From NCBI GenBank assembly GCA_937858825.1, contig CALMAI010000005.1, positions 1 through 58,587 on the forward strand: a stretch of 58,587 nucleotides of DNA. The letters run 5' to 3'. The position numbers were made by a program, and so were the translations under genes. How positions within the stretch are numbered: the first letter of the stretch is position 1; every line of letters begins with the position of its first letter. The stretch is from an uncultured Candidatus Peregrinibacteria bacterium. Lineage in GTDB: Bacteria; Patescibacteriota; Gracilibacteria; UBA1369. The notes under the pieces are model-generated. The model did no database searches and was not told the DNA's origin. It saw only the letters and a list, made by a program, of their open reading frames with translations. This document shows positions 25,063 to 51,949 of this stretch, piece after piece.

Positions 25063-26187
25063 TTATAGATACGCTTTCAGAGCATCGGCTTTGTCTGTCA
25101 CTTCCCATGTAAATCCTTCTTCGTTTCGACCAAAGTGACCATATGCCGCGGTTTGCTTATAGATCGGTCTTTTCAGCTGGAGGGATTCAATAATATTCGC
25201 CGGCCGGAAATCAAAATGTTCACGAACAGCTTCCAAAATTTTCTCATCAGCGATCTTCCCCGTACCAAACGTTTCCACAAAAAGTGACAACGGATCCGCC
25301 ACACCAATCGCGTACGAAACCTGCAGTTCAAACTTATCAGCAAGTCCGGCAGCAACTACATTTTTCGCTACATAGCGGGCATAATACGCCGCACTTCTGT
25401 CCACTTTAGAAGGATCTTTCCCAGAAAAACATCCTCCCCCATGCCGGGCCATTCCACCATAGGTATCTACAATAATCTTCCGCCCGGTCAGCCCAACATC
25501 GCCAGGCGGACCACCAATAATGAAGCGCCCCGTCGGATTCACGTGAACAATCGTTTCATCATCCAAAAAATCGCCGCACACCGGACGAATCACATGTTCC
25601 AGGACATCTTTTTTAATCTGATCCTGCTCCACATCCGGCCCATGCTGCGTGGAAACCACCACCGTATGCACGCGCTTCGGCGTCAAACCATCATACTCAA
25701 TCGTTACCTGACTTTTCCCATCAGGGCGCAAGTATTTCAACACACCCTCTTTCCGAACCTGCGCCAACCGCCGTGTAAGCTTGTGTGAAAGTACAGCAGA
25801 AAGCGGCATCATCTCTTCACATTCGTTCGTCGCGTACCCAAACATTAAACCTTGATCGCCCGCTCCACCCGGATCCACACCCATCGCAATATCCGGACTC
25901 TGCTCATCAATTGCCGTCATTACCGCGCACGCCTTGGAATCAAATCCATAACTGGCATCGTGATAGCCAATCTCATCCAATGTCGCCCGCACAATTTTGG
26001 GAATGTCCGAATAGCAACTGGTCGAAACCTCTCCACACACCATCACCATTCCCGTGGTTGCAACCGTTTCCACAGCCACACGTCCATTCGGATCCTGCCG
26101 TAAAATATCGTCCAAAATCGCATCAGAAACCTGATCCGCAATCTTGTCAGGATGTCCCTCGGTCACCGATTCAGAAGTAAAAAGCAT
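25063..26187 (-). CDS. metK: S-adenosylmethionine synthase
   Basis: Makes AdoMet from methionine and ATP. From ATG 26187 it has 374 residues, with N-terminus [41 protein letters not shown] and the phosphate loop [19 protein letters not shown] are present, the Ala of the usual GGGAFSGKD being Cys. The unusual place between two nucleotide-sugar genes may supply AdoMet for the methyltransferase fusion made from the convergent gene, or may be chance. A TTG at 26193 is a less likely start. Confidence 0.97.
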
Positions 26188-26196
26188 GCTCAAAAG

Positions 26197-45554: not shown

Positions 45555-47417
45555 CTAATTTTTATAGTCGCGCCCAAAACGTTTTTCCAACTCAGCCGCA
45601 GGAAGCCGGACCATTGTTGGCCGACCATGAGGGCAGGTATAAGGCAAATCCAGGGTCATCAACTTTTCGCACAGCGCTTCCATTTCGGCCATTTCCAAAG
45701 GATCACCAAACTTTACAGCACTTCTACACGCCGCATAAGTAAGAGCCTTCTCTTTCCGTGCCTGAAAATCTCCTTTCAGAGATTGATTATTCAAGTCATC
45801 CAAAATTCCCTGAATCAAAGAGGATGGATCCTCCTTCACCATGCTACTTGGAACACCATAAACAGAAAAAGTATTTCCTCCAAACGGTTCAATCTCAAAT
45901 CCAAGCCCTTTCAAAAGTTCCAGATTCTCTTCCAGAATCGACTTGTCCGAAAGCGACAACTCTAACTGAACCGGCATCAAAAGTGGCTGCGTCGAAATCT
46001 CTTTCTTCTCAAACTGGTCCAAAAGTTCGGTATAGCGGATCCGTTCATGCGCGGCATGCTGATCCAAAACCACCAGGTCCATGTTGGCATGCGCGCCTTC
46101 TCCAGGATTCTTACTCACCTGCTGACACACAATATACGATCGATTCATCTGCGCGAGTGGTATGAGTTCAACTGTCTCATCCCGAAGAGTTGCTTCCGGT
46201 TCAGATTGATCACTTTCTTGTTGGGGTAAGGATTCTTGGGCCGCCTCTTCCGGCGCATCTTTCAATACCAATGCTTCCTGTTTCACCGGTTCATAATTGG
46301 CAGGCTCATACACCGGTGGCGTCACATCCACTGATTTCAAAGTTTGGTGGTCACGTTCTCGCGGTTGCGAAAGTGTAGAAAAATCTTCAGGAATCTCTTC
46401 AACCGGAACATTGAAATCCGGAGCCAATACATGTTTCTCCAGTGCATGCTTGGTCGCCTGCACAAAAATTCTAAAAATTGCTTTCTCATCACTAAATCGT
46501 ACTTCCAGTTTTCGTGGATGAACATTCACGTCCACTAACTTTGGATCCACTTCCAAAAAGAGCACAAAAACAGGATGCCGATTGTTCGGTAGCAAAGAGT
46601 GGAAAGCTTGCTTCACCGCATAAGAAAGCACATAGGATTGGACCTCCCGCCCATTCACAAACAGATGTTGAGCCTTCCTATTTGCTCGCGCAATATCCGG
46701 CTTTCCAATAAATCCTTCCAGTCGCATTTGTGCATGACCATTAAAAACAGGAATCAGATTGTCCGCCACCTGCCGCCCCATCAAATCCCGAATCCGAACC
46801 TGTACATTTTCCGTCGCAGCCAGATCAAAGACGATCTTGTCATCGTGTACCAGTTTCATCGCCACACCTGGATTGGCCAAAGCAATCCCGGTTAAAAGAT
46901 CAACAATTGCCCGATACTCAGCAGCATCACTCTTAAGATATTTTTTCCGTACGGGAGTATTAAAAAACAGATCCCGTACCTCAATTTGCGTTCCTTCCGG
47001 GCATCCCAACTCTTTCATTTTCGTCATCCGCCCACCCTCATTCATCAAGAGCGAACCCTCCATCGCCCCCTCCTTTTTTGTCTCCACGATCATATCCGGA
47101 ACCGATGCAATACTCGCAACCGCTTCTCCTCGAAACCCAAACGTAAGAATATTTACCAGGTCATCCGCCGTCGAAATCTTGCTGGTGGCATGCCGCTCAA
47201 AACACAAAACCGCATCCTCTTTATCCATCCCTTTCCCATCATCAGTCACCCGCAAAAACGTATCTCCCCCACCATGAGCTTCCACAATAATCCGCTGCGC
47301 ACCAGCATCCAAAGAGTTCTCCACCAACTCCTTCACCACAGACGCCGGACGTTCCACCACCTCACCCGCCGCAATTTGGTTAATCAAATTTTCCGGAAGA
47401 ACTTTAATTGTTGGCAT
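45555..47417 (-). CDS. mutL: DNA mismatch repair protein MutL
   Basis: 620 residues. N-terminal GHKL ATPase: VKELVENSLDAGAQRI, DDGKGMDKED, ATSKISTADDL, GFRGEAVASIASV. The C-terminal domain carries endonuclease-type motifs DQHAAHERIRYTE, AACRSAVKFGD and CPHGRPTMVRL, indicating a nicking MutL as in Gram-positives rather than the E. coli type. In the first motif the final Glu of DQHAxxExxxxE is Thr with Glu one place later. The middle is an acidic Gln/Glu linker. It overlaps the mutS end by 14 bp and is last of the methionine-attenuated operon. Confidence 0.96.
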   Translation of the reverse strand: MPTIKVLPENLINQIAAGEVVERPASVVKELVENSLDAGAQRIIVEAHGGGDTFLRVTDDGKGMDKEDAVLCFERHATSKISTADDLVNILTFGFRGEAVASIASVPDMIVETKKEGAMEGSLLMNEGGRMTKMKELGCPEGTQIEVRDLFFNTPVRKKYLKSDAAEYRAIVDLLTGIALANPGVAMKLVHDDKIVFDLAATENVQVRIRDLMGRQVADNLIPVFNGHAQMRLEGFIGKPDIARANRKAQHLFVNGREVQSYVLSYAVKQAFHSLLPNNRHPVFVLFLEVDPKLVDVNVHPRKLEVRFSDEKAIFRIFVQATKHALEKHVLAPDFNVPVEEIPEDFSTLSQPRERDHQTLKSVDVTPPVYEPANYEPVKQEALVLKDAPEEAAQESLPQQESDQSEPEATLRDETVELIPLAQMNRSYIVCQQVSKNPGEGAHANMDLVVLDQHAAHERIRYTELLDQFEKKEISTQPLLMPVQLELSLSDKSILEENLELLKGLGFEIEPFGGNTFSVYGVPSSMVKEDPSSLIQGILDDLNNQSLKGDFQARKEKALTYAACRSAVKFGDPLEMAEMEALCEKLMTLDLPYTCPHGRPTMVRLPAAELEKRFGRDYKN

Positions 47418-49935
47418 GTTTCAATTCATGAAGTTTTTTCAGCGCCTCCATCGGCGTCATGTTGTCGGTGTCGATAGCATCGATCTCTTTTTGAAGAGGG
47501 TTATGATCGCGTTCGCGATCATCCTGAAACAGCATCGACTGTGTTTGTGCAGGCCGAGAGGCGAGTTCTTTCTGCACCGCTTGTTCATGGGATCCTTCTT
47601 CAAGGTCTTGCAAAATCTGCCCGGCCCGAGCGATCACATCTGTTGGCAAACCAGCCAGTTTGGCCACTTCGATTCCATAACTTTTGTCCACACCGCCCTT
47701 CAGCACTTTGTATAAAAACACTACACCTTCTTCCGCATTTTCCTTTACCGCGACCGAGTAATTCACCGCATGTTCCAGCTTGTCGGCCAAGGCAATCAAT
47801 TCATGATAGTGCGTTGCAAACAGCGTTTTCGCACCAATCGAATCGTGCAAATATTCCAAAATCGACCAGGCAATGCTCATACCATCGTAGGTAGAAGTTC
47901 CCCGACCGATCTCATCCAGTATCACCAGACTTTTCTCAGTCGCCGAAGCAAGAATGTCTGCGGTTTCCTGCATTTCCACCATAAACGTACTCTGCCCGCG
48001 CACCAAATTATCCGACGCTCCAACGCGTGTAAAAATCCGATCCACCATACCAATCTCGGCAGCCTCTGCAGGCACAAAACAGCCGATTTGCGCCATGAGC
48101 ACAATCAACGCGACCTGACGGAGGTACGTCGACTTCCCACCCATATTCGGCCCCGTAATAAGCTGTACACGCTCTCCTGAGTTCAGGAGAGCGGTATCAT
48201 TTGGCACAAACCGTGCGGCAAAACTCATCTCTTCCACCACCGGATGCCGGCCATTCACAATATTCAGGTCTCCATCAGCCTTCACGGTTGGCTTGCAATA
48301 GCGATTCATAAGTGCCGCCGCCGCGAAACTTTGCAGCACATCCAGGAGCGCCAACTTCTTCGCCGTTTTCTGAATCCGATCTTTCTCTGCCACAACCTGG
48401 GCTCGAACTTCCGCAAAAAGTTGTTGTTCCAACGCCACAATTTTCTCTTCCGCGCCCAAAACTTTCTCTTCGTACTCCTTCAATTCGGGAGTGATGTAGC
48501 GCTCCGCGTTCACCAAAGTCTGTTTACGAATCCACGTTTCCGGAACCTTGCTCACATGCGATTTTGAAACCTCCAGGTAGTAGCCAAAGACCTTGTTGTA
48601 ACGCACTTTCAAGTTACTGATACCAGTTCGCGCAATCTCTTCCTGCTGCATTTTTTGAATGTAGGATTTTCCTTCGCGGCTGATTTTTTTCAACTCATCC
48701 AGTTCGGTGTGGTATCCATCGGCAATCACACCACCATCGTTAAAAGTAAGAGGAGGTTCCTCCACAATCGCTTTTTCAATGAGCGTAACGATGTCAGAAA
48801 GGGGATCGATGCCGTCCCGGATGCCAGCAAGGAGTTCGGTTTTCGCACCTTTTCCATCGGACGACGCGCTCAAAAGTTGTTGGATAGTAGGGATCTGTTG
48901 CAGCGACTGTTTGAGTGCTGCGAGGTCGCGCGCGCTGCCCCGATTCATCGAAAGCCGCGCCAGCAATCGCTCCATATCCAAAATAGACCCCAGAACGCCA
49001 CGCACATCCTCCGCCAGCGCGCGCTCCTTCACCAACTCTTCAACCGCGTCCAATCGCCGAGCCACCTGCCCAGCATCCACCAATGGATGCGTCAAAAAAT
49101 ACCGCAATAAGCGCCCACCCATTGCTGTTTCCGTTTTATCAATCACCCACAACAACGACCCCTCTTTTTTCCCTTCCCGCAACGTTTCCATTAACTCCAA
49201 ATTCTTTAAAGTCGCCTCATCCAGTGCCATAAAATCAATCTCATCAGCTTCCCCAACCACCATATGATCCAAATTGGTTTTCTGTGTCTCTTTCAAATAG
49301 TCCATCAAAAACTCTTCCACTTTCTCTGCCTCGCTCGCATGCCCAAAAACAAAAACATCACGCATCCGCTTCAAACTATCAACCCAATCGCTCTCCAATT
49401 CGGCCGCACTCACCACCAGCTCGCTCGGCCCCAACCGCTGGAGCTCCGCTCCCAGCGCCTTCACATCAGCCACTCTCACTATTCCAAACTCACCAGTCGT
49501 CACATCGGCAAACGCCAGCGCAAACCCGCCACCAATTTCCATAACCGCAGCAACATAATTACTCTTTTTTGCATCCAAAACCTTTTCATCAAGCGTCGTT
49601 CCCGGTGTCACAATCCGTGTTACCTCGCGCTGAACAATTCCCGGTTCACTCGGGTCAGAAACCTGATCGCAAATCGCCACCTTTTTTCCAAGCTTCGTTA
49701 ATTTCGCAATGTATCCCTCTGCCGCATGGTGTGGAACCCCACACATTGGCACTCGCGTTTCCCCCTTACCCCGACCGGTCAACGTTAATCCCAAAAGCTT
49801 TGCTGTTTCTTCAGCATCATCAAAAAACAGTTCATAAAAATCACCCAACCGGAAAAACAACAAACACCCTTCATGCTCAGCCTTAATAGCCAAATACTGC
49901 TTCATCATCGGTGTCAATTTCCCATCACTAGCCAT
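47404..49935 (-). CDS. mutS: DNA mismatch repair protein MutS
   Basis: 843 residues, close to the 853 of E. coli. Mismatch-reading motif in domain I, LGDFYELFFDDA, with the Phe-x-Glu pair. Walker A GPNMGGKSTYLRQ, Walker B region LVILDEIGRGTSTYDG, and the HTH contact segment at the end. The C-terminal DNNMTPMEALKKLHELK-like tail is the tetramer region and is short. The start overlaps the upstream gene by 8 bp, so it is translated from the same mRNA as the methyltransferase gene. Confidence 0.97.
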   Translation of the reverse strand: MASDGKLTPMMKQYLAIKAEHEGCLLFFRLGDFYELFFDDAEETAKLLGLTLTGRGKGETRVPMCGVPHHAAEGYIAKLTKLGKKVAICDQVSDPSEPGIVQREVTRIVTPGTTLDEKVLDAKKSNYVAAVMEIGGGFALAFADVTTGEFGIVRVADVKALGAELQRLGPSELVVSAAELESDWVDSLKRMRDVFVFGHASEAEKVEEFLMDYLKETQKTNLDHMVVGEADEIDFMALDEATLKNLELMETLREGKKEGSLLWVIDKTETAMGGRLLRYFLTHPLVDAGQVARRLDAVEELVKERALAEDVRGVLGSILDMERLLARLSMNRGSARDLAALKQSLQQIPTIQQLLSASSDGKGAKTELLAGIRDGIDPLSDIVTLIEKAIVEEPPLTFNDGGVIADGYHTELDELKKISREGKSYIQKMQQEEIARTGISNLKVRYNKVFGYYLEVSKSHVSKVPETWIRKQTLVNAERYITPELKEYEEKVLGAEEKIVALEQQLFAEVRAQVVAEKDRIQKTAKKLALLDVLQSFAAAALMNRYCKPTVKADGDLNIVNGRHPVVEEMSFAARFVPNDTALLNSGERVQLITGPNMGGKSTYLRQVALIVLMAQIGCFVPAEAAEIGMVDRIFTRVGASDNLVRGQSTFMVEMQETADILASATEKSLVILDEIGRGTSTYDGMSIAWSILEYLHDSIGAKTLFATHYHELIALADKLEHAVNYSVAVKENAEEGVVFLYKVLKGGVDKSYGIEVAKLAGLPTDVIARAGQILQDLEEGSHEQAVQKELASRPAQTQSMLFQDDRERDHNPLQKEIDAIDTDNMTPMEALKKLHELKHANN

Positions 49936-50267: not shown

Positions 50268-51218
50268 TCATAAAGAATGCCACTCAAAATGACAATCATT
50301 CTGGGGAACGGCCGAAATGTGGCTTACACTCTCATGATCATGGCCGCAACATCCACCCACAATCGACAGATTAAACCGCTTGGCTAAAAAGCGCAGATAC
50401 TGCCCGACACTTTTAGGATCCTCCACTTTCTGTACACCATCACTCCCACATAACTCTCGTGGATCAGCCGACGAAGCATTCGGATAGCAGGCAATCACTC
50501 TTCCCAAATCCTCTGTTGAAGCAAATGCATGAGTCAGTCCCTCAATTGGACAGCAGTTAAAAGAATAACCGACCACTGTTTGTCCACTCGCATCATCAAC
50601 AGCCTTAATAGCATCGCGCACACTCTCTCCACTCAAAAGACGTCCATCCCGATCAATAATAAAACTAATCACCGTTGGCACATAAGGCGCGGCAGCCTGT
50701 CCAATCCCCACAGCCTCTTCAATTGTAGCAATCGTTTCAAACCAGAGCACATCGGCATCACTCTTTTCAAATCCCTGCACTTGTAATTCATGAAAATCTT
50801 TCGCCAAACCACGATCAGGAGCCTCTTCCGGCTTATAACAATCACCATACGGACCCACACTCAAACTCAAAGCCTTCAATACAGCATCCCGCGCATAAGA
50901 CCTTACTCCCTGGAGCATTGCATTTTGTTGCCCAACAATCGCCTCTTCATACAACCGCCGTTCACCTTCATGCAAAAGTCCCCGCAAACCAAAAGCATTA
51001 ATGGTCGCGACTCGTGCGCCAGCATCAATATACTCACCAGCCACTCTCGCAATCGCATCCCGAGCCTTCTGGCTTGTCAGCACTGCTGTTGGAGCCACGA
51101 TATCCGGATTACCAATCTCTGCCCCAATCTGCTCAAGCCGCGTTCCATACGGCCCAAACAAAGTACTGCACTCCTGCGACCCACCATTGACGCCCAAAAC
51201 AAGATTATTCCCTGTCAT
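50268..51218 (-). CDS. Homocysteine S-methyltransferase family protein
   Basis: 316 residues, TIM barrel of the MmuM/BHMT family, making methionine from homocysteine and a methyl donor (S-methylmethionine, AdoMet or betaine; not decided). Zinc ligands are in YSFNCCPIEGL and the C-terminal IVGGCCGHDHES. Other family motifs are AGARVATINAF, SLSVGPYGDC, VLWFETIATIEEA and YPNASSAD. It is first of the operon with yqfO-like, mutS and mutL. It is preceded by a methionine leader-peptide attenuator, which independently supports a methionine role. Confidence 0.9.
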   Translation of the reverse strand: MTGNNLVLGVNGGSQECSTLFGPYGTRLEQIGAEIGNPDIVAPTAVLTSQKARDAIARVAGEYIDAGARVATINAFGLRGLLHEGERRLYEEAIVGQQNAMLQGVRSYARDAVLKALSLSVGPYGDCYKPEEAPDRGLAKDFHELQVQGFEKSDADVLWFETIATIEEAVGIGQAAAPYVPTVISFIIDRDGRLLSGESVRDAIKAVDDASGQTVVGYSFNCCPIEGLTHAFASTEDLGRVIACYPNASSADPRELCGSDGVQKVEDPKSVGQYLRFLAKRFNLSIVGGCCGHDHESVSHISAVPQNDCHFEWHSL

Positions 51219-51240
51219 GATAAAAAGTTAAAATGTTAAG

Positions 51241-51270
51241 AAAAAAGCCCTCGCGTGTGCGAAGGCTTTT
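51241..51270 (-). terminator. Attenuator terminator in front of the homocysteine methyltransferase gene
   Basis: On the minus strand AAAAGCCTTCGC (51270-51259) pairs with GCGAGGGCTTTT (51254-51243) over 12 bp with one G-U pair around an ACAC loop. U6 follows at 51246-51241. It lies 20 nt past the leader stop and 22 nt before the gene. Confidence 0.9.
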
Positions 51271-51312
51271 GGAGTTGTATGATCAGTTTCTACCAAACAA
51301 CCGGCCTTCGCA
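51258..51312 (-). promoter_or_regulatory. Antiterminator pairing of the methionine attenuator
   Basis: TGCGAAGGC within the leader codons (51312-51304) is perfectly complementary over 9 bp to GCCTTCGCA (51266-51258), which is the 5' arm of the terminator. The two structures exclude each other. A ribosome stalled at the Met codons leaves the first arm free, while one at the stop codon would cover it. Confidence 0.85.
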
Positions 51313-51385
51313 GCGAAAGCATCATCATAGACATCATCATTGACGAAGTTTGTTGCAAGCCGTTTTGTTGGGCAAAAGTTTTCAT
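51290..51385 (-). CDS. Methionine-rich leader peptide
   Basis: A 31-codon reading frame, ATG at 51385, TAG at 51292-51290. It begins MKTFAQQNGLQQ, then SSMMMSMMMLSL, so six of seven consecutive codons at positions 16-22 are Met, and ends RRPVVW. There is no known protein family, as expected for an attenuator leader. The promoter places the transcript start at or within a few bases of the ATG, so the leader peptide mRNA would be leaderless. It is the sensor part of the attenuator of the methyltransferase operon. Confidence 0.87.
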   Translation of the reverse strand: MKTFAQQNGLQQTSSMMMSMMMLSLRRPVVW

Positions 51386-51392
51386 TGGTCCG

Positions 51393-51420
51393 ATTATATC
51401 TGGATAAAGCTGAGAGTCAA
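51393..51420 (-). promoter_or_regulatory. Promoter of the methionine leader and methyltransferase-mutSL operon
   Basis: TTGACT (51420-51415), a 16-bp spacer, and TATAAT (51398-51393) on the minus strand, among the best promoters in the window. Only 7 nt separate the -10 box from the leader ATG. Confidence 0.8.
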
Positions 51421-51430
51421 TAAATCCAAT

Positions 51431-51949
51431 CTAGAGCGACACTAAAACCATCTCAATAAGGGCTTTTGCAGATTCGATTTTGTCCTCTTCAGTCATCATG
51501 GCACTTTCAACATTCACATTCACCCAAATGTCATCCTGGTAAGCATCCCCATTCACAGTGTCATTGAATACAAGTCCAACGCTTCCATCTCCAAGATCAT
51601 CAAAGTCGGCAAGTCGATACTCATCGACGACACTTTCCGCATTCATGGTATGAGTGTCAGCCGCATCAGATCCCTTTTCTGCCATAATCGTCACCTGCAC
51701 GCCACCGCCAGAATACTGACAGGTGAGAGGTGGTTGATCTTCCGGGCTTATAACATCAATGGACATTGTCTGGCGAACAAAATCGCCAACAATACGAGGT
51801 GAAATAATGTCACAAAGAGAATTTCGTGCCTCAGGGCTCTGTTCTGTTATAGGTTGATTAGTCAGTGATATACTTGGATTTTCTGATGGAGAACCCCCAC
51901 ACCCGGCAAGGAAAAGGGAAGTGAGAAGAAGAAGAGAAAGGCGTTTCAT
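51431..51949 (-). CDS. Putative lipoprotein of unknown function
   Basis: 172 residues. A clear lipoprotein signal peptide ends at the lipobox LAGC (about 14-17), so the mature protein starts with lipid-modified Cys. LCDIISPRIVGDFV, and later LTCQYSGGGVQVTIM, recall DUF3558-type lipoproteins of actinobacteria with two conserved Cys, but I am not sure. The C-terminal part is acidic. It follows the two paralogous membrane protein genes with an 11-bp gap, so the three form one unit. Confidence 0.8.
   Translation of the reverse strand: MKRLSLLLLTSLFLAGCGGSPSENPSISLTNQPITEQSPEARNSLCDIISPRIVGDFVRQTMSIDVISPEDQPPLTCQYSGGGVQVTIMAEKGSDAADTHTMNAESVVDEYRLADFDDLGDGSVGLVFNDTVNGDAYQDDIWVNVNVESAMMTEEDKIESAKALIEMVLVSL

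Follow-up and report, generated by a model that had tools for sequence, protein, structure and literature searches.

A predicted methionine-specific transcription attenuator ahead of a homocysteine S-methyltransferase operon and similar leaders in Patescibacteria

To our knowledge, methionine is absent from the list of classic leader-peptide attenuators, and almost no regulation has been described in Patescibacteria. The DNA analysed here, a stretch of 58,587 nt from an uncultured Candidatus Peregrinibacteria bacterium referred to as the window, raises the question whether a methionine attenuator may operate in these bacteria. On its minus strand, from 51420 to 51241, a promoter, 7 nt, an ATG, an ORF of 31 codons, 19 nt, and an intrinsic terminator follow each other, and the ATG of a homocysteine S-methyltransferase gene is located 22 nt beyond. 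The -35 box TTGACT (51415-51420) and the -10 box TATAAT (51393-51398) are separated by 16 nt and yield 11 of 12 promoter matches. The ORF (51290-51385) encodes MKTFAQQNGLQQTSSMMMSMMMLSLRRPVVW and contains, at codons 16 to 22, the putative regulatory run ATGATGATG-TCT-ATGATGATG (51320-51340), with Met at codons 16 to 18 and 20 to 22. Promoter, 31-codon leader, the run MMMSMMM, and all coordinates had been given in a preliminary description of the locus and were confirmed base for base. Among 1,064 short ORFs (10 to 60 codons, both strands of the window), six Met in seven codons are found only in this leader, the runner-up having four. The Met-rich leader is not a chance occurrence. It is kept in a 96% identical relative (G006) and has 67 homologues; homologous runs are present in about 70 leaders. 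Since its ATG lies 7 nt past the -10 box, the leader mRNA is probably leaderless.

The leader had been placed ahead of an operon consisting of the methyltransferase gene, mutS, and mutL. These genes are all present, but an additional ORF of 123 aa (50299-49928) lies between the first two. The first gene (50268-51218, minus strand as all others) specifies a protein of 316 aa matching PF02574 (E 6.8e-35); the NCBIfam homocysteine S-methyltransferase models match below their equivalog cut-offs, and alignment to 5dml revealed that the cysteine motif NC...GGCC is retained. The 123-aa ORF overlaps its neighbours and shows no family match. It is followed by mutS (47404-49935; TIGR01070) and mutL (45555-47417; TIGR00585). 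This order of four genes is kept in G006 and G009 and was not seen behind other methyltransferase leaders. For mutS and mutL, being part of the operon may be a matter of mere position. The genome containing the window comprises 1.3 Mb in 46 contigs and is 96% complete. A scan of genome contigs with the methyltransferase gave one match, in a sister Ca. Peregrinibacteria metagenome-assembled genome, with 96% identity; on this basis, the class is taken as Gracilibacteria (GTDB). A search of the window's own genome for S-adenosylhomocysteine hydrolase (PF05221) gave no match. The window also harbors metK, the gene for S-adenosylmethionine synthetase (25063-26193, minus strand), ahead of which the leader model detects no leader.

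Behind the Met run, alternative RNA structures are predicted. The antiterminator was initially described as nine perfect pairs, which are indeed formed between TGCGAAGGC (51304-51312) and GCCTTCGCA (51258-51266), but it is longer than that. A second, inner helix (51302-51292/51283-51273) surrounds the leader stop codon within 51273-51302, with pairs 51302-51297/51278-51273 and 51295-51292/51283-51280. The 3' arm GCCTTCGCA of the outer helix is also the 5' arm of the intrinsic terminator (51241-51270), which consists of AAAAGCCTTCGC-ACAC-GCGAGGGCTTTT and a U-tract. Its stem, 51270-51259 with 51254-51243, is present, but of the 12 bp assigned to it only eight, one of them G-U, form the core; the remainder is an A-tract/U-tract pairing in which four of the six tract U double as the 3' half of four A-U pairs. 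Directly behind the Met run, GCTTTCG-CTG-CGAAGGC (51304-51320; -6.4 kcal/mol) is predicted to form a hairpin that can act as the competing 1:2 structure. In the window, the two-part antiterminator (51312-51258) reaches a total of -21.7 kcal/mol versus -17.8 kcal/mol for the terminator, and the fold of the leader RNA has a z of -4.8. When whole leaders are folded at equilibrium, the terminator prevails in most. Therefore, switching has to take place during transcription, which is also the case for known attenuators.

Methionine genes are often controlled by S-boxes or T-boxes, and SAM-I riboswitches scored above cut-off in nine of 88 genomes of the order. A metabolite riboswitch or a T-box next to an incidental small ORF could thus be envisaged, but it would leave the in-frame start at the promoter and the conserved Met frame unexplained. 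Searches with RF00162 and RF00230 gave no match in the leader region (50900-51700) at E values up to 1 and none above cut-off in the window's own genome. For this reason, the explanation was rejected and is regarded as very improbable. The Rfam leaders Phe_leader (21.6 of 55 bits) and Leu_leader (20.4 of 50 bits) stayed below their gathering cut-offs for the window leader. In G009, a genome also containing a Met leader, two SAM-I riboswitches were observed (C2:293406-293508 and 294337-294439). Sub-threshold T-box matches of 36 to 47 bits occur in three genomes of the class (L179, L180, L181).

Conserved Met codons in relatives had been predicted as a check of a methionine attenuator. In 89 genomes of the order, 15 homologues of the methyltransferase were detected. 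The 11 best, the window's own and ten others, extend down to 34-44% protein identity, and each of them is immediately preceded by a terminator and a short ORF rich in Met, as expected from this prediction. The Met runs include MMMSMMM, MAMMM, MMAMMMQMIM, MMMAMMM, MMQMQMPM, MMMMSM, MQMQMM, and MMMQMQMM. Since the leaders differ in nucleotide sequence, spacing, and neighbouring residues, Met density and geometry appear to be what is kept.

When 353 genomes of the class were scanned for the pattern, the same arrangement emerged ahead of other genes too, and a covariance model built from 21 leaders raised the class total to about 70 Met-rich leaders. As the model was derived from ATG-rich sequences, the Met content of the leaders found with it is partly selected; only the search by methyltransferase homologues and the metA and PF02574 tests described below are free of this selection. 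Model matches below about 33 bits were mostly plain terminators (e.g. L106, L108-L110, L112, L114-L116) and were left out. A second match in the window's own genome (C23:69376, 27.8 bits) was judged to be a chance match, and several matches of the pattern scan, Asp- or Met-rich coding stretches without terminator, were discarded. In the homologous leaders, Met accounts for 20% of the residues. The number of Met codons ranges from two to eight across families, and spacing and residues outside the run vary; Met density stays. Outside the class, further convincing leaders were detected in a sample of 380 genomes of the phylum, among them those in G398 (MMMAMMM before a NAAPR family protein), G609 (MIMAMM), G600, G357, G624, and G538.

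Some variants of the arrangement were also observed. Two Met leaders in series precede one gene in L093, L082, L070, L098, L087, and L090; in one example, MMMQMM...RSLRGQVAA with its stop codon is followed by MMMSMPMPLRGG and another stop codon. A short variant ahead of metA in one genus (L118, L120, L121) ends with MMQLS before the G-rich arm, which places the antiterminator arm behind the stop codon. In L130 (G144), the metA reading frame crosses ten TGA codons; TGA readthrough is expected there, in a TGA-recoding lineage of the class.

Which genes follow the leaders was determined by Pfam searches. Homocysteine S-methyltransferase (PF02574) accounts for 14 genes, and metA/HTS (PF04204), a Cys/Met PLP enzyme (PF01053, E 4.6e-138), and two genes with the N-terminal domain of SAM hydroxide adenosyltransferase (PF01887, E 1e-9 and 5e-7) were also found. 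According to known biochemistry, all these enzymes make or release methionine or its precursors. Other leaders are located ahead of genes for methyltransferases and small proteins of unknown function, and some precede genes without a known link to methionine. For the metA test, all PF04204 genes in the class were gathered before any of their upstream regions was read. A Met-rich ORF and a terminator are directly upstream of 11 of the 17 genes, one more lies second in an operon with a leader, and five have none. Thus, the expectation of Met-rich leaders was also met ahead of genes collected by family, not by leader sequence. For PF02574, 14 of 26 genes have a leader directly upstream, one has a weak one (G236), and for one (G025) the leader heads the operon, two genes away, 16 in total; the ten genes without leader specify one MetH-sized protein and divergent homologues. 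Among the genes bearing leaders, 36 of 47 pass the Met criterion, a set partly chosen for Met, and none of 207 other genes in the fetched loci does. These numbers also bear on the possibility that the terminator acts constitutively or serves a short unrelated transcript, and that the Met codons are ATG-repeat noise. ATG repeats do arise by chance in Asp-rich coding sequence, as several scan matches demonstrate, but such matches lack the geometry of ORF and terminator, the control genes fail the same test, and the leader is conserved in register to low protein identity. Noise can hence hardly be upheld as an explanation.

Additional support for the Met frame came from the promoters. An arrangement of TTGACA or TTGACT with a mostly 16-nt spacer is present ahead of most of the 67 homologous leaders. 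Where the promoter is strong (52 leaders), the distance from the -10 box to the first ATG or GTG in frame has a median of 7 nt and is mostly 6 to 9 nt, and the start codons are 28 ATG, 22 GTG, and two TTG. Judged from these distances, the first in-frame ATG or GTG sits where transcription is expected to begin, which independently supports the Met frame as the translated one.

Compensatory changes, the other predicted check, were detected in both helices. Across homologous leaders, covariation in the terminator stem amounts to 0.454 versus 0.179 for shuffled sequences. Between the antiterminator arm and the shared arm it is 0.247, compared to 0.152 when shuffled and 0.05-0.14 when slid; with the first 21 leaders, values of 0.302 and 0.170 (shuffled) were obtained. 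Duplexes of an arm with its own terminator are more stable (-16.4 kcal/mol) than swapped ones (-12.2 kcal/mol), and none of 20,000 permutations was as good. The difference is larger for the 28 leaders with unlike arms (-15.1 versus -9.3 kcal/mol), again with no permutation out of 20,000 as good. An inner helix of at least four pairs enclosing the stop codon is predicted for 59 of 67 leaders (prefix fold, median z -3.4), and the distance from the stop codon to the terminator has a median of 23 nt, with 17-30 nt as the 5-95% range.

To these structures, the position of a ribosome can be related in silico. In the window, the antiterminator is whole if the A site of the ribosome is occupied by Met codon 16 or 20, and only partly available at codon 22. 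With the ribosome at codon 25 or at the stop codon, the antiterminator is lost and the terminator alone can form. In 66 of the 67 leaders, a ribosome at the first Met still permits at least five pairs onto the terminator arm; at mid-run this number is 65, at the last Met 33, and at the stop codon two. A stall at any point within the run's first half is enough. As modelled, this is the geometry of ribosome-mediated attenuation.

The locus is therefore interpreted, with a probability of about 0.9, as a ribosome-mediated transcription attenuator specific for methionine. What was observed or computed comprises the anatomy and its conservation, the covariation, the in silico geometry of stall and stop, and the link to methionine-forming genes; translation, termination in vivo, and charging of Met-tRNA as the signal are inferred. 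The signal in particular is deduced from the run of Met codons, from the genes controlled, and by analogy with known attenuators, without expression, ribosome-profiling, or 3'-end data. Transcription would start on the leader AUG or immediately beside it, and the probably leaderless message would be entered by a ribosome. With plentiful Met-tRNA(Met), the ribosome would clear codons 16 to 22 and would already be covering the antiterminator's 5' arms once the terminator region has been transcribed. In this state, the terminator (51270-51241) could form, and transcription would end before the methyltransferase gene. If charged Met-tRNA were scarce, the ribosome would stall in the Met run and leave 51312-51273 free. 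The antiterminator could then form before the 3' arm of the terminator is transcribed, and the operon of methyltransferase gene, 123-aa ORF, mutS, and mutL would be read.

A stall could also be caused by the peptide itself, as in arrest peptides of the TnaC or ErmL type, which would sense free methionine, SAM, or another molecule independently of tRNA charging. Several subgroups share a similar C-terminal peptide (e.g. MMHMMMHSLRGRELA, MMMxMMMxPLRGGC) that could represent an arrest motif, but this tail coincides with the RNA arm pairing to the terminator and changes together with that terminator. Neither the variation of Met number, spacing, and residues outside the run at constant Met density nor the in silico result that any stall in the run's first half suffices fits an arrest peptide, which is considered unlikely.

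If the leaders are methionine attenuators, they can serve as tags for unknown methionine genes, and proteins without a known family encoded behind the same Met leader become candidates for methionine or SAM metabolism. Three groups are concerned. The A2 family (L025-L028, L047, L061, and others) comprises 17 diverse proteins in which the motifs N.A.R, F, QFRS/QYRS, and D...N are invariant. They are possibly divergent SAM hydrolases, a tentative assignment from sequence alone. Three of the 17 reach SAM_HAT_C with a best E of 5.8e-5, below cut-off; hhalign of the family against clear SAM_HAT_N proteins found nothing, and a profile search of the PDB returned mostly maltose-binding-protein artefacts and 2zbu with an E of 0.06. 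Small related proteins of 66-77 aa starting with M[VG]NILPI, candidates for methionine metabolism, are encoded directly behind Met leaders in L029 (1631-1861), L030 (1183-1389), L071 (1263-1475), and L089 (2729-2926). Related oxidoreductases of the FAD/NAD type were observed in L045 (1620-2879) and L087 (1395-2840).

Beyond the single locus, it seems probable, although far from settled, that Patescibacteria possess a methionine regulon run by leaderless Met-codon attenuators. One design, sometimes in tandem, would have been moved among genes for homocysteine S-methyltransferase, metA, Cys/Met PLP, and SAM-hydrolase-like genes. It would fulfil the task that SAM riboswitches, T-boxes, or MetJ have elsewhere, sensing elongator Met-tRNA even though Met also starts the leader. 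The absence of methionine from the attenuator list is plausibly explained by methionine starting every protein. A well-supported case would mean that a cell can read scarcity of elongator Met-tRNA through a leader itself needing the initiator tRNA, and the leaderless AUG or GUG start makes this tension testable. For Patescibacteria, such an attenuator adds to the regulation known.

Compared to SAM riboswitches, Met T-boxes, and MetJ, the Met leaders share the control of methionine genes and differ in the sensor. S-box riboswitches were the elements named for methionine in a comparative study of Actinobacteria, which described no Met leader structure there (PMC1262725). The statement in the preliminary description that no described Met leader attenuator was known has to be qualified in one respect: a weak one, metL ahead of metNIQ in Streptomyces lividans TK24, has been proposed as a leaderless, methionine-responsive short ORF (PMC8079986). 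It contains two internal Met codons (MSTTSDRTPATEATTTPGARCMCRRMCAF) and no typical terminator, is known from one genome, and termination is called unclear by its authors (PMC8079986). In contrast, the Met leaders have five to eight clustered Met codons and a defined switch, and they occur in dozens of genomes. In open-licence papers, no other claim of a methionine leader peptide was found. The cysteine-responsive poly-Cys attenuators of mycobacteria, which are cited in two papers (PMC9094748, PMC9031893), are likewise leaderless short ORFs; they are located ahead of sulfur genes, and their codon run specifies a sulfur amino acid. For candidate mycobacterial cys leaders no conserved terminator hairpin was found (PMC1262725), whereas the Met leaders conserve an intrinsic terminator with an overlapping antiterminator.

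Closest are the attenuators of the trp/his class (trp, his, leu, thr, ilv, and phe of Proteobacteria; trp, ilv, and leuS of Actinobacteria). These have the same run of cognate codons and competition between antiterminator and intrinsic terminator, a stop codon placed so that the terminating ribosome favours the terminator, and downstream genes for the respective amino acid. Of the features of this class, the Met leaders possess the promoter and short ORF, translation of which has not been shown, the cognate codon run, the terminator before the first gene, and a covarying antiterminator sharing the terminator arm, which a stall frees and the stop position blocks, in silico only. Downstream genes make or recycle methionine (PF02574, PF04204, PF01053, PF01887), with part of the targets unknown. 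They differ from the class by their methionine specificity, the leaderless ATG or GTG start, the patescibacterial host, the gene set of metA, S-methyltransferase, and SAM-hydrolase-like genes, and the lack of an Rfam leader match above cut-off. The mechanism is thus a known one; methionine specificity, leaderless ATG or GTG starts, and the distribution over Patescibacteria seem to be new. Most likely, the classic trp/his attenuator has in the leader described here its first well-supported counterpart for methionine, the response to methionine being inferred.
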